Shown: positions 14,265 to 35,852 of the stretch, one piece after another
Layout of the letters: each line of letters opens with the position of its first letter
How positions within the stretch are numbered: position 1 is the stretch's first letter
Assembly: GCA_015490465.1 (NCBI GenBank)
Contig: WFXS01000031.1
Coordinates: forward strand, 1-42,822
Length of the DNA stretch: 42,822 nucleotides
Direction of reading: 5' to 3'
Source: Caldifarciminota bacterium
Lineage (GTDB): Bacteria; Hydrothermota; Hydrothermia; LBFQ01
Notes under the pieces: model-generated
The model's input: the letters and a program-made list of their open reading frames with translations, nothing else
Told to the model about the DNA's origin: nothing
Databases searched by the model: none
Program-made: the position numbers and the translations under genes

Positions 14265-14318
14265 GGTGGCGATTATAAACGTGTACTTCTCTTTCCCGTC
14301 CCTATAATAGGCGTTGGA

Positions 14319-14587
14319 ATGGGTAAACTCTCCGCTTTGAACACTTTAAAGGAGAAACTCGGCGAGGACGGTGTAAACGCCCTGCTTGAGGTAATTGAGA
14401 AGGGAGAAAGGACGAGAGATAACCTCTTTCACCTCCTTGAGGAGAGGTCGCCCGTAGGCTTGCGGAGGAGATGGGAAAGCTACGCTCTGAGATGTACGAG
14501 CAGATGGGTAAGTTAAAGGTCAATATCATGATTCATTTTTTTGGTCTCCCAGACGATAGCAATAATAAGCCTCATCGGTTACGATAA
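14319..14587 (+). pseudogene. Frameshifted small coiled-coil protein gene
   Basis: MGKLSALNTLKEKLGEDGVNALLEVIEKGERTRDNLFHLLEER continues in the -1 frame from about 14450 as ARRLAEEMGKLRSEMYEQMGKLK; promoter-like TATAAT-N10-ATG retained. Confidence 0.5.
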
Positions 14588-14885
14588 CGAGTCTTTGAGA
14601 TGAGGCCATAACTCCCCAACTAAACCCCAGAGCGGTAAGTATGAACCGCATCAGCATCGGCAGTGGAAGGGTGAAACCAGATATGCGCGTTGAAGATTTA
14701 GAGTTGAAGGGTAGCATAAAGGCGACCTCAGAGTTTCTTTGGCATAAGAAACAGATGGCAGGGGTACGTTTATCTCTCCACCAACTTCGGCGGCGATTAC
14801 ACTGGCTCGGTAGAGCCGCCCTTCAGTTTCAACGTAATCCCCTCTTCTCTATTTAAGCGCGAAACTACTGTAAAATTCTTGCGGT

Positions 14886-30172: not shown

Positions 30173-30259
30173 CTAAACTTTAGCCCCTGCCATCTGATTC
30201 CCATGCCAAAAAACTCTCCAGACTTTCTCCTTCGCTCTCTCAAGAACGGCCTCCTTCAT
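30173..30259 (-). CDS. 28-aa small ORF MKEAVLERAKEKVWRVFWHGNQMAGAKV, ATGA-coupled to Uma2 gene
   Basis: GGAGGTGATAAG-ATG Shine-Dalgarno; start overlaps Uma2 stop; ends TAG. Confidence 0.4.
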   Translation of the reverse strand: MKEAVLERAKEKVWRVFWHGNQMAGAKV

Positions 30260-30810
30260 CTTATCACCTCCTCAATCTTGAGCTTGAAACCTTTAAGGAC
30301 GCACGACTCAACATCCCCCTTCTCAACAGCAACCGAGTGTAGGACATATCTACCATCCTTCAAACACCAAACCTCTATTACTTTTTCACGCGGGAGAACT
30401 ATCCAGTACTCCCTGACGCCGTGCTTCTCATAGAGCTTGAACTTCTCATACCTATCGCGATGATAACTACCCGGTGAAACTATCTCAACTACAAGGTCGG
30501 GAGGTCCGAATACGCGATCTTTCACAATATCCATCCTTTCTCTAAAAACGAAGAGGAGATCAGGCTGTACGACCACCGTATCCGATAGGATAACATCAAC
30601 AGGTGATATGAGGATATCACCCCTTCCCTTTAAGCTGACCCTAAGGATGTAGTACAGATCACCCAGGACCCTTTGATGTAAAACTGTGGGCGCGGGCATC
30701 TCGTACAACCTCCCGTTTATGACCTCATAGCGTTTGTCGTCCGTGAGGCGAAGGTAATCCTCGTAGGTCCAAATCTTCTCCTTTGGTCTCTCCTTAACCG
30801 CAACAGCCAT
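30256..30810 (-). CDS. Uma2 family (DUF820) endonuclease-like protein, copy 1
   Basis: YEVINGRLYEMPAPT, VQPDLLFV, PDLVVEIVSPGSYHRDRYEKFKLYEKHGVREYWIV; ATG 30810 after GGAGG. Confidence 0.9.
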   Translation of the reverse strand: MAVAVKERPKEKIWTYEDYLRLTDDKRYEVINGRLYEMPAPTVLHQRVLGDLYYILRVSLKGRGDILISPVDVILSDTVVVQPDLLFVFRERMDIVKDRVFGPPDLVVEIVSPGSYHRDRYEKFKLYEKHGVREYWIVLPREKVIEVWCLKDGRYVLHSVAVEKGDVESCVLKGFKLKIEEVIR

Positions 30811-30828
30811 ATTCAACCTCCTTTGTCT

Positions 30829-31395
30829 TCATTTGAAGACCTCCTTAAGGTCTATCTCCAGTCCCTCCAACACCTTGCTCTTAACCTTACCCTCCCCTTC
30901 GGCTACGCTGAAGAGGTCGTACTTACCCTTATCGTTCAGGACCCACACCTCAATAGCCTTCTCATCGGGATAAACGATCCAGTACTCCCTAACTCCAAAC
31001 TTCTCGTATATCTCTTTCTTAACGACCGTATCTCTCCGCACTGTAGCAGGTGATATTATCTCAACGACCAGATCCGGAGGCCCCATTATGGCCTTCTCGC
31101 CTATTATCCCAAGCCTATCCTTGGAGATGAAGATTATGTCCGGCTGAAGGACGTACTTATCCCCTAAAACCACGTCTATGGGAGAGGGGAGAACCTCACC
31201 AGGATCCTTTCTTTCAACGAAGTATATCATAAACTTGGCGATCCTTATAAGTATCCTCTGATGCAAAGGTGTAGGTGCAGGCATCTCGTACAACCTCCCG
31301 TTTATGACTTCATACCGTTTGTCATCCGCAAGGCGGAGGTAGTCTTCGTAGGTCCAAACCTCCTTCTCCGGCCTCTCCTTAACTGCTACAGCCAT
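30829..31395 (-). CDS. Uma2 family (DUF820) endonuclease-like protein, copy 2
   Basis: Same motifs (LQPDIIFI, PDLVVEIISPATVRRDTVVKKEIYEKFGVREYWIV); ATG 31395 after GGAGG. Confidence 0.9.
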   Translation of the reverse strand: MAVAVKERPEKEVWTYEDYLRLADDKRYEVINGRLYEMPAPTPLHQRILIRIAKFMIYFVERKDPGEVLPSPIDVVLGDKYVLQPDIIFISKDRLGIIGEKAIMGPPDLVVEIISPATVRRDTVVKKEIYEKFGVREYWIVYPDEKAIEVWVLNDKGKYDLFSVAEGEGKVKSKVLEGLEIDLKEVFK

Positions 31396-31451
31396 TTTCA
31401 ACCTCCTTCAATTCAAAATTATACCCCCGAAGCGCCGCCGTGTGGTCTAAA

Positions 31452-33386
31452 CTACCCCCTGCCCTTCCTCCTTATCTCCTCCAACACCTCCGGATTAACG
31501 AGAGCCGAAGTGTCTCCGAGGTCTTCGCCGAGGTAGGCCGCCCTTATGAGCCTACGCATCACCTTGGCGTTCCTCGTCTTGGGTAGGCCGCTTACGAAGA
31601 CCACGTCCTTGGGGGCGAGGGCCTTACCCATCTTCCTTACGACGTTCTCCATTATCTGGCGCTTTATCTCCTCCGAAGGCTCGTACCCCTCCTTGAGTAC
31701 GACAAATAGGACGGCCACCTGGCCCTTCACCTCGTCCGGTACGCCGACGGCGGCACTCTCAACCACGGCCGGATGCTCATTCGCGAGGGCCTCAAGCTCG
31801 GAGGGGCCGACCCTCTTGCCGGCGATCTTCAGGGTGTCGTCCGCCCTGCCAAGGATGTACCAGAAGTCGTCCTCATCTATATAAACGAGGTCCCCGTGGT
31901 ACCAGAGACCCTCCCAGCGGCTCCAGTAGGTCCGGATGTACCTCTCGTCGTCTTTCCAGAAGGACCGGGTCATTCCGGGGTTGACGTTGGCGATGGCCAG
32001 ATAGCCTATCTCCCCTTTAACCGGCTTCCCCTCCTCGTTTACGGCCAGAGCCTCCACGCCGGGTACGGGGGTGTTGAAGGAGGTCGGTTTTATAGGCCTT
32101 ACGACCACGCATCCGAGGATTCCGCCGGAGATCTCCGTCCCTCCGGAGTAGTTTATTATGGGTTTCTTGCCCTTCAGGACATTAGTGTAGGTCCAGTACC
32201 ACGACTTCGGGTCCCACGGCTCACCCGTTGATCCCACCATACGCAGATGCTCCATCGCGTACTTCTTGACCCACTCGTCCCCTTCCTTCATGAGCGCCCT
32301 TATGAGGGTGGGGGTTATGCCGAGGATGGTAATGCCGTGCCTCTCAACCATCTCCCAGAGGCGGTCGGGCCTGGGATAGGAGGGGAGACCCTCGTACATG
32401 AAGACGGTGGCGCCGCTCACCAGTCCGCCCCCTATCAGCCACGGCCCCATCATCCAGCCTATGTCCGTCACCCACGTTATGACATCATTGGGCTTTATGT
32501 CAAAGAGGTGATACATGTCCTGGGCGCCCTTTATCATGAAACCGCCGTGGACGTGCCTGGCCCCCTTGGGTTTCCCGGTCGTTCCGGAGGTGTATATGAC
32601 CATAAAGAGGTGATCGGGGTCGTAGGCCTTCACCTCAAGGTCGCTGGACTCACACCTGACGAACTCCTCGTAGTCCAGCTCGTTGCACATCAGGGAGGTG
32701 TTTTTGTCCCGGCGTACGACTATTACCCTGTCAAGGGAGGGGATGTCCTTGTAGGTCTGGCGGAGGGTGTTGAGCATGGGGATGCGGTTGCCCTTGCGCC
32801 AGGCGTAATCCGTCGTTATAACGACTTTGGCGTTGGCGTCCGAGAGCCTAACCCTTATAGGCTCCGGACCGAAACCGGAGAAGAGGGGTACCACCACCGC
32901 CCCGATACGGGATATGGCCAGGAGGGATATGGCGGTCTCCGGTACGAAGGGCAGGTATATGCCGACGGCGTCCCCCTCCTTTACGCCGAGTTGCTTGAGG
33001 GCATTAGCGAGGCGGTTCACCTCCGCCTTCAGCTGGCCGTAGGTGTAGGTACGCACCTCTCCGTTCTCCCCCTCCCATATCAGGGCGCGCTTACTCTGGG
33101 GGTGGCGGTCAAGGGCGTTGTAGGTCCAGTTGAGTTTGCCCCCCACCCACCACTTCGCCCAGGGCTTGCCGCGGGAGAGGTCTACGGTCTGATTGTAAGG
33201 CTCGTGCCAGTAGAAGCCGGTGTCCTCAAAGTAGGCCCGCCAGAACCAATCGTAGTCGCTGAAGGAGCGTTTCAGGAACTCCTCGTAGGAGTCTATGCCG
33301 TACTTCTTCATCTGGTGGTAGATGTTGGAGTTCTCAATCCACTCGTTTGTGGGCTTCCATTCAACGGGGAAACTCAGCACCTTCAT
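31452..33386 (-). CDS. Acetyl-CoA synthetase-like AMP-forming acyl-CoA synthetase
   Basis: YTSGTTGKPKGARH, NYSGGTEISGG, YHGDLVYIDEDDFWYILGRADDTLKIAGKRVGPSELE; start moved to ATG 33386 (TAAAAT-N7). Confidence 0.88.
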   Translation of the reverse strand: MKVLSFPVEWKPTNEWIENSNIYHQMKKYGIDSYEEFLKRSFSDYDWFWRAYFEDTGFYWHEPYNQTVDLSRGKPWAKWWVGGKLNWTYNALDRHPQSKRALIWEGENGEVRTYTYGQLKAEVNRLANALKQLGVKEGDAVGIYLPFVPETAISLLAISRIGAVVVPLFSGFGPEPIRVRLSDANAKVVITTDYAWRKGNRIPMLNTLRQTYKDIPSLDRVIVVRRDKNTSLMCNELDYEEFVRCESSDLEVKAYDPDHLFMVIYTSGTTGKPKGARHVHGGFMIKGAQDMYHLFDIKPNDVITWVTDIGWMMGPWLIGGGLVSGATVFMYEGLPSYPRPDRLWEMVERHGITILGITPTLIRALMKEGDEWVKKYAMEHLRMVGSTGEPWDPKSWYWTYTNVLKGKKPIINYSGGTEISGGILGCVVVRPIKPTSFNTPVPGVEALAVNEEGKPVKGEIGYLAIANVNPGMTRSFWKDDERYIRTYWSRWEGLWYHGDLVYIDEDDFWYILGRADDTLKIAGKRVGPSELEALANEHPAVVESAAVGVPDEVKGQVAVLFVVLKEGYEPSEEIKRQIMENVVRKMGKALAPKDVVFVSGLPKTRNAKVMRRLIRAAYLGEDLGDTSALVNPEVLEEIRRKGRG

Positions 33387-33501
33387 AGGGGATATTTTAA
33401 GCCGGGAGCGGCCGTGTTTAGGAACGGCTCTTGAGGATATGGCCAGAGATTTATCTGAAGTCGTACCGGTACAGGTGTTGTACCCCTTCAGGTCGGGATA
33501 T

Positions 33502-33535
33502 TTACACTTATGCGAAATTTGACCACATAGTGTAA
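33502..33535. promoter_or_regulatory. Operator-like inverted repeat upstream of zinc-ribbon/HTH gene
   Basis: TTACACT(T)ATG-cgaaatttgacca-CATAGTGTAA, 10-bp arms with a 1-nt bulge; further GTGTAA half-site at 33547-33552. Confidence 0.5.
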
Positions 33536-33563
33536 GCATATGAACGGTGTAAAATTTCAGGTT

Positions 33564-34439
33564 ATGTATAGCATTAGGACGATCTTAAGGTGCAAAGTGT
33601 GCGGTAGCTACGACATCATCAAGCACGCTGGCATACCCCTGCGCTTCAAGTGCAGGACCTGTGGTAACACCTTCTCCTTCAACGTCCAGCACCCACTCTA
33701 CAAGAAGCACGGGAAGAGGTTGAGCGACAGGGAGAAGGCCAGCATAGCGGCCGACTACAGGGTAGGTATACCCGTTTCCCATATCATGAAGGATCACTCC
33801 GTCTCCTACGGGACCGTGATGAGGGCGGTAAGGTACTTTGAGAGGGGGAGAAGGATCTACCTGTGGAATATCATGTACATGCCCCGGACGAGACCCAGAG
33901 ATTGGGAAGTGGTTGACATGGACATTATATTGCCGGAGATTGAGGCGGGTAGGTTGAGACAGGGGTGGGGAATAGAAGATCTGCGCGAGGGACCGGATGC
34001 GTTCTACAGGGCGGTGGCGCGGATGTATCCGGAGGAGATAGATCCAGAATATCCCCGTCAACGAAGCAGTATAATTAAGAGCAGATACGATGCCTTAAAA
34101 CTTATGCTCCTTATGAAGCCGGGGGATTATGTAATAGTGCCGAGGTTAGGTAGGTGGAGGGAGAGATTTCTCGTTATAGCCGAGGTATCGGGAGGATACG
34201 AGTTTGACGGCCCGTACTTCTTTGGCCATCACGTCAGGATAGGTCGCACGAAGGTATTCGCTCTGGAGAGTCGGACAAATGACCCCGAGGAGATAGCCGA
34301 AGGCTACGACCACGACTTCCAGGTTCTCTGGCATTTCCTCAGATCGTGGAGGCTCTACAGACCGTTAGAGAGAGGGGCTTCGGTCGTGGACAGGCGAAAC
34401 CGGGAGTTGTACAGGGTGGTCAACCGGATAATGGGGTAG
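33564..34439 (+). CDS. Zinc-ribbon + HTH + SH3/EVE-like 'RQGWG...GDYVIVP' domain protein
   Basis: CKVCGS...FKCRTCGNTF zinc ribbon; HTH region LSDREKASIAADYRVGIPVSHIMKDHSVSYGTVMRAVRYF; GRLRQGWGIEDLREG and MKPGDYVIVPRLGRWRERFLVIAEVSGGYEF. Start 33564 from TAAAAT-N8-ATG. Confidence 0.65.
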   Translation: MYSIRTILRCKVCGSYDIIKHAGIPLRFKCRTCGNTFSFNVQHPLYKKHGKRLSDREKASIAADYRVGIPVSHIMKDHSVSYGTVMRAVRYFERGRRIYLWNIMYMPRTRPRDWEVVDMDIILPEIEAGRLRQGWGIEDLREGPDAFYRAVARMYPEEIDPEYPRQRSSIIKSRYDALKLMLLMKPGDYVIVPRLGRWRERFLVIAEVSGGYEFDGPYFFGHHVRIGRTKVFALESRTNDPEEIAEGYDHDFQVLWHFLRSWRLYRPLERGASVVDRRNRELYRVVNRIMG

Positions 34440-34460: not shown

Positions 34461-35852
34461 GTGGATATTCGCAGGAGGGTTATAGATCGCTTTCGGGTAA
34501 TCGTCCTGCACCATAAAGGGCTTGACGTAAAGGAAATTTCGGAGAGAACGGGAATACATCCGAGAACGGTCAGGAGGATCCTCGACACCGGAAAGGTGTT
34601 CCCGGCGGCGTACGAGAAGGTAATACGGGATATTGAAAAGTTCCCCTTTGCGAGCGTGGAGGAGAGGGCCTCAAGGTTAGGGATAAGTAAAGGGTACGTA
34701 TCGCGGATGTACGGCCTCGTGTTCTTTTCGGACAGATCGGAAGGGGAAGAGTGGATGGCCGAATACCTCGTAAGGGTCGGGTTGTACGATCTATCAGCCG
34801 GACTCCTGAGGATCCTCCCGTTTTCGTACAGAACCTACAGCCTCATAAGTTCGCTCCCGGAGGAGTACCTGACGCCCCACCTCAGGATCCTCAAACTCTA
34901 CGGGGACGTAAGGTTCAATCCGTCGGGATACGGGCGGGACTACTACGATAGAGCCTTCAGAAGCCTCATGGAAAGGCTGAGAAGGGACGGATATCACCTG
35001 TCGTATTACCACGCCCTCTACACGTACATGAACGTCCTCATGCTCCAGAGTCGCTGGAGAGATGCCTACGACCTCGCCTTAAGCGTTGAGAGGGATCCCA
35101 TCCTCCTGCCTCCCCCCCTTTCCCTGAACCTCTACGCCCTGATAGGCAAACTGGCCATCACTCTGGGTTATTCAGAGAAATTCAGGGAGCTACTCTCCAG
35201 GCTCAGGCACAAATTGAGGAAGAAGAAGACCTTCGTTCACCTCAGAAAGAAGGTCACCCTTGACCTCATCATAGCGGACGGTAAGTACTCCCAGGCAGCG
35301 CGGTATTCGTTAAGGGACGTTCACGAACCTGATGCCACACTTTTCCGGTGTATATTGCTCTTACAGACGGGGAGATTCAGGGAGGTTATACGGGAGGACG
35401 TTTCCCACGTTGAAGTTCCACTGTACCGTTTTTACACGTCCGTGTTGAAAGGGTACGCCCGGCTGGTCCTCGGATACGTTTCAAACGCCCTTAACGACGT
35501 GGGAAAGTCCTACAGGAAGGTTGAGGGTTTCGGGGCGGCTGAGAGTCTTTACTGCCAGTTCATGGCTTTCTACGAGGCCAGAACGGACAGGTACGAGAGA
35601 TCCGAAGGGTACCTGCGGAGGATAGTTGAGATAAGCGGCGGGTACGGTGTCATGGGCAGGGTATCCAGAGCGCTCATAAACCGTAATACGTCTTTCCTGT
35701 CGGATTTCAGCAGGGAGAACCTCTTGAGGCTCGTGATGGACGGCCGGACGGAAAACGCCCTTGACATGGCGAGGAGGTACGGGATGCTCTTTGACCTGAT
35801 CTATCTCTCAACCCTTGCGGGAAAGCCTTTACGGGTAAACTTCGCCCGCTAA
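34461..35852 (+). CDS. HTH protein with long TPR-like helical repeat region
   Basis: HHKGLDVKEISERTGIHPRTVRRIL HTH, second HTH-like RASRLGISKGYVSRMYG, helical repeats; TAAAAT-N6-GTG. Confidence 0.65.
   Translation: MDIRRRVIDRFRVIVLHHKGLDVKEISERTGIHPRTVRRILDTGKVFPAAYEKVIRDIEKFPFASVEERASRLGISKGYVSRMYGLVFFSDRSEGEEWMAEYLVRVGLYDLSAGLLRILPFSYRTYSLISSLPEEYLTPHLRILKLYGDVRFNPSGYGRDYYDRAFRSLMERLRRDGYHLSYYHALYTYMNVLMLQSRWRDAYDLALSVERDPILLPPPLSLNLYALIGKLAITLGYSEKFRELLSRLRHKLRKKKTFVHLRKKVTLDLIIADGKYSQAARYSLRDVHEPDATLFRCILLLQTGRFREVIREDVSHVEVPLYRFYTSVLKGYARLVLGYVSNALNDVGKSYRKVEGFGAAESLYCQFMAFYEARTDRYERSEGYLRRIVEISGGYGVMGRVSRALINRNTSFLSDFSRENLLRLVMDGRTENALDMARRYGMLFDLIYLSTLAGKPLRVNFAR

Follow-up and report, generated by a model that had tools for sequence, protein, structure and literature searches.

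The gene described here lies on the forward strand of the window (the whole stretch of 42,822 nucleotides that was analysed) and encodes a three-part protein, in which a zinc ribbon and a helix-turn-helix (HTH) are followed by a second conserved domain and then by a short helical tail. The gene and its architecture had been pointed out in a first-pass annotation of this DNA, and both were confirmed by the open reading frame, the CxxC...CxxC pattern, the HTH and the conserved blocks of the C-terminal half. As a whole, the architecture matches no curated model in scans of Pfam, NCBIfam and PADLOC. The features of the locus are as follows, residues of the protein being counted from 33540.

33540-34439, forward strand: open frame of 299 amino acids from the first ATG, from the list of open reading frames.
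33564-34439, forward strand: the gene, 291 amino acids from the probable start Met9, placed by the N-termini of homologues.
33591-33662, forward strand: zinc ribbon C18-x2-C21-x16-C38-x2-C41, with cysteines nearly invariant in family alignment A1; IS1/IS1595 Zn model.
33720-33851, forward strand: HTH, residues 61-104, Pfam HTH_23; the IS1 transposase model spans residues 18-102.
33852-34268, forward strand: Mrr-type N-terminal (putative sensor) domain, residues 105-243, from hhalign comparison with two Mrr-type restriction endonucleases (REases).
33948-33971, forward strand: GRLRQGWG motif, residues 137-144, conserved in alignments A2 and A5.
34122-34142, forward strand: GDYVIVP motif, residues 195-201, with GD invariant in alignments A2 and A5.
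34269-34436, forward strand: C-terminal tail, where most family members carry a Y-x-x-[DN]-x-Q motif (alignment A1).
33430-34390, no strand: island of divergence from genome G004 that covers the gene together with the region upstream, identity ranging over about 55-97% in stretches of 60 bases.

Relatives in related genomes, indels that remain in frame and a dN/dS of 0.24 (0.167/0.699, against the closest relative, the G004 allele) identify a genuine coding gene, which is under purifying selection. In most of the related proteins the start lies 6-10 residues ahead of the first zinc-ribbon cysteine, and therefore Met9 (33564), the start chosen in the first-pass annotation, is favoured over 33540. 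Relatives with the whole architecture occur in 9 of the 147 genomes of the phylum, all of them within one order: at 73%, 72% and 35-39% identity in the same genus and family, and as more distant proteins in one genus of a second family, with none elsewhere among the 147 genomes. Among named assemblies, those of candidate division WOR-3 come closest to the genome that carries the window. The phage records and viral contigs that were searched contained no relatives of the protein, and weak phage matches with E of 3 or more were attributed to chance.

The N-terminal head is of the type found in IS1 transposases. The IS1 transposase model matches the N-terminus of 9 of the 12 family members (best 1.4e-6) and the IS1/IS1595 Zn model matches 8 of the 12 (best 2.8e-6), the window protein's own scores for both models being below the curated cutoffs; its match to Pfam HTH_23 (E=1.2e-4) is just under the cutoff. 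Since the IS1 match in the window protein is limited to positions 1-81 of 199, with the Mrr-type domain as the remainder, the catalytic part of the transposase is absent, and no DDE or DD(E/H)N catalytic core was detected by domain-model scans. The family thus shares with the IS1/InsA and IS1595 transposases a CxxC...CxxC ribbon followed by an HTH, but the window protein lacks their DDE domain and scores far below the transposase cutoff. The model matches and their truncated coverage bear out the earlier description of an IS1/InsA-type zinc ribbon and HTH without a DDE core, while the suggestion of a domesticated transposase holds for the DNA-binding head and not beyond it, neither a transposase core nor mobility having been seen. 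A decayed or domesticated transposon protein without current function would account for the IS1-type head, but is extremely unlikely in view of the dN/dS of 0.24, the in-frame indels, the retention of the gene at the same locus in three genomes, the invariant residues kept across an order and the missing transposase core.

The second domain has, in the family alignment, the pattern W-R-[IV] ... G-R-L-R-Q-G-W-G ... L-K-x-M-L-x-x-K-P-G-D-Y-V-x-V-P ... G-Y-x-F ... G-H-x-V-x-V; L-x-QG-x-G, GD, Y and H are conserved within it. 'GRLRQGWGIEDL' and 'MKPGDYVIVP...VIAEVSGGYEFD...FGH', the two C-terminal stretches singled out in the first-pass annotation, turned out to be the conserved blocks of the family. 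No significant Pfam model was found for this domain, and several family members have weak matches (1e-4 to 1e-3) to the PADLOC models for PDC-S02, a defence candidate. The sole find in a plasmid collection was an annotated restriction endonuclease of Nitrosococcus halophilus plasmid pNHAL01 (WP_013028125.1), with an N-terminus that reads YWAIRTDRYNKPLLLSELRDGRLRQGWG...VQPGDLILVPNLPEDGYFLLAEVTGTYYYD...DYGHVLPV and a C-terminus that, at 20.8 bits, falls short of the Mrr_cat cutoff of 21. This search was performed with a lightly edited, consensus-like query and the unedited query reached the enzyme at E=0.2 only, therefore homology was judged from profile comparisons.

The family profile A2 aligned with the N-terminal domain of the Nitrosococcus enzyme at a probability of 97.9% and a score of 77 (hhalign), compared with scores of at most 19 in 60 shuffles. 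A profile that included the Nitrosococcus domain then retrieved, at 2.9e-9, a 353-amino acid protein with a clear Mrr_cat domain (78 bits) from G115, a genome of the same phylum. The N-terminus of this second REase aligned with the original profile at 94.7% and a score of 49, while control scores did not exceed 18 in 60 shuffles or 19 with unrelated proteins of the window; the shuffles for both enzymes gave probabilities of at most 2.6%. A third and more distant Mrr REase (G050) reached only 48.9% against the family profile. By these profile comparisons, homology between the second domain and the N-terminal domain of Mrr-type enzymes is established, in agreement with the link to Mrr-like proteins suggested earlier for the C-terminal half. 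GD-[hydrophobic]-VP, Y and H are common to the family and to the Mrr-type REases (PDC-S02; WP_013028125.1), and GRLRQGWG occurs also in the Nitrosococcus enzyme. The order of the parts differs: in the Mrr-type REases the domain is N-terminal and is followed by Mrr_cat, whereas in the window protein it lies C-terminal of the zinc ribbon and HTH and the nuclease is absent.

The SH3/EVE-like fold that had been suggested together with the link to Mrr-like proteins is not established. AlphaFold modelling of the full protein and, separately, the domain, with sequences restricted to the window protein plus two close relatives, gave no reliable model (pLDDT 43-44), so this fold is unproven; Foldseek searches with these models gave no significant match and the hits were not usable, and the PDB contains no sequence relative of the protein. 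A direct relation to the EVE proteins of the phylum was also compared, and the EVE profile reached 28% against the second-domain profile. Since the models do not resolve the fold, the label of sensor derives from homology. No match to Mrr_cat or to any other nuclease domain was obtained for the protein with Pfam, NCBIfam or PADLOC, and these collections do not recognise the tail, where no nuclease motif was seen. A stand-alone nuclease of unrecognised type, to which the Mrr-type domain and the conserved tail motif Y-x-x-[DN]-x-Q could be related, is considered very unlikely: a tail of 55 residues cannot accommodate a PD-(D/E)XK core, a D...(E/Q)xK motif was not seen, and the members in G008 and G010 have lost Y-x-x-[DN]-x-Q.

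Neighbourhoods of the family were surveyed for nuclease and defence genes, as had been proposed with the first-pass annotation, at eight distinct loci, G003:C129 and G005:C31 being cut by contig ends. The result was divided. Type II restriction-modification (R-M) genes adjoin the family gene at three of the eight loci, and none adjoins it at the remaining ones, among them the window copy together with the G004 and G005 orthologues. A TaqI pair is present at two loci. At the second family copy of the window's own genome (G000:C20), a methylase with a TaqI_C domain and a TaqI REase lie directly upstream on the same strand; at G002:C10, in an assembly with 7% contamination, such a pair is also found upstream on the same strand, with a DUF805-like gene between, and an unrecognised 366-amino acid protein and then an N6/N4 methylase (two genes downstream) are encoded on the other side. 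At G004:C60 the divergent adjacent gene encodes an N6/N4 DNA methylase. The chance of three in eight loci is about 4e-4 to 6e-3 at assumed per-locus rates of 2-5%, a range estimated from methylase counts. TaqI systems also exist without an adjoining family gene (G006:C117, G029:C27), thus the link with R-M genes is a tendency and not a rule.

These arrangements bear on two further explanations. The protein could be a targeting or specificity subunit: its head would bind DNA, its Mrr-type domain would recognise the sites, and a nuclease or methylase from another gene, such as the adjoining R-M enzymes, would be recruited to them. The same-strand position downstream of the TaqI-type methylase and REase at G000:C20 and G002:C10 is consistent with such a role, but the two TaqI systems that lack a family gene, the variation of the neighbouring enzymes between loci and the absence of such a partner at the window copy make it improbable. 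A general host transcription factor outside defence, in which a small ligand would bind to the Mrr-type domain, is likewise judged unlikely. Its targets in the window could be the acetyl-CoA synthetase gene, from which the gene is divergent in G000, G004 and G005, or the downstream gene for an HTH/repeat protein; neither neighbour is conserved outside the window locus, however, and other loci adjoin R-M genes. The downstream gene (34461-35852) encodes a 463-amino acid protein that has an HTH_23 at its N-terminus, a long region of uncharacterised sequence and diverged relatives elsewhere in the order. As a constant partner it was rejected, its relatives in G005 and G001 being located on other contigs.

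Controller (C) proteins of R-M systems are short XRE-type HTH proteins with C-boxes. The family resembles the C proteins of type II systems in being an HTH protein that adjoins methylase and endonuclease genes at some loci, but differs from them in its zinc ribbon, its HTH_23-type head, its large second domain and the lack of a significant operator repeat. A candidate cis operator upstream of the gene (TTACACT/AGTGTAA and three copies of GTGTAA) was rejected because 44% of random 180-base stretches contain some hexamer three times.

The reading preferred here, which is advanced tentatively and falls somewhat short of probable, is that the protein is a nuclease-free DNA-binding regulator or sensor, with an Mrr-type domain placed on a transposase-type head, that serves R-M or other defence systems. 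Having no cutting domain of its own, the protein is probably a regulator or sensor rather than a nuclease. The putative sensing N-terminal domain of an Mrr-type enzyme would have been detached from its cutting domain and joined to the zinc-ribbon/HTH head, which would bind a specific DNA site and act there as a local sensor or as a regulator of transcription. This binding may be tuned by the Mrr-type domain to the state of the DNA (e.g. modified bases) or to a nucleotide signal or other ligand, and the tuned binding would in turn serve R-M or other defence genes; the window copy, with no R-M neighbour, might act in trans or on itself. DNA binding, sensing of modified DNA or of a ligand, and regulation of R-M genes are inferred roles. 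A published precedent for the fusion of an HTH with a PUA-like domain is XRE-HTH joined to ASCH (PMC7641849), which is similar in its DNA-binding head, its putative reader of nucleic acid modification and its setting in conflict systems; in the protein described here the HTH belongs to another family, the second domain is only putatively PUA-like and a toxin-antitoxin operon was not seen. If the preferred reading is true, the domain with which a poorly understood class of restriction enzymes senses its signal can also operate apart from any nuclease, inside a regulator. This would offer a clean way to find out what the domain senses, since DNA-binding reporters are simpler to assay than nucleases, which are toxic, and the R-M systems of an uncultured phylum would gain a control protein of a new type.

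The gene is kept at the same locus in three genomes and its sequence diverges sharply between them. Against G004 it shows 78.6% nucleotide and 73% protein identity, with values down to 55-68% in places, whereas the flanks are about 97% identical on both sides (97.5% for the acetyl-CoA synthetase part, 97.6% for the next gene); it is the only such trough of identity in the 8.2 kb aligned to G004. The dS against G004 is 0.70 for the gene and 0.08 and 0.14 for two downstream genes. Relatedness shifts within the gene, the HTH region of the window allele being nearer to G005 and its RQGWG region nearer to G004. Positive selection in its simple form was rejected as the cause of the divergence, since dN/dS stays below 1 while dS is also elevated, a combination indicative of alleles that are old or were imported. 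These patterns of identity fit a mosaic exchange between old alleles better than rapid point substitution. A bolder extension of the preferred reading, somewhat unlikely as a whole, is that the family comprises lineage-specific transcription factors linked to R-M systems that would read the methylation status of DNA with a reused Mrr sensor and a transposase-derived head and would adjust R-M expression or defence to it, their alleles diversifying by recombination.

The 5' part of the acetyl-CoA synthetase gene (32590-33387) is about 97% identical among G000, G004 and G005, which suggests that the segment was exchanged recently or is very strongly constrained. Elsewhere in the window G005 mostly shows an identity of about 73-78%, and identity falls at or near the start of the acetyl-CoA synthetase gene.

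Other neighbours were also recorded. Genes for small, probably exported proteins (L061:3584-5365, L060:1142-3576 and L059:7481-8209) are found near family copies in both G000:C20 and G008:C36, where they are alike, and occur also in G003 and G005 on other contigs; these proteins are a possible second conserved neighbour of the family. In G004:C60 (L063:8150-10292) a small protein with a GDIVF pattern is followed by an McrB-like AAA+ ATPase, and a similar small protein (L060:3818-4318) is encoded about 3 kb from the family member in G008. Within the window, two tandem genes at 30256-31401 look by eye like Uma2-type nucleases and belong to a family with many scattered copies in G004 and G005. 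Dispersed repeats at 14287-14512 and 14785-14876 have no Rfam match. The second of them is present at many places in G004, and as several of its copies lie at about position 41-60 of contigs, it may break assemblies.
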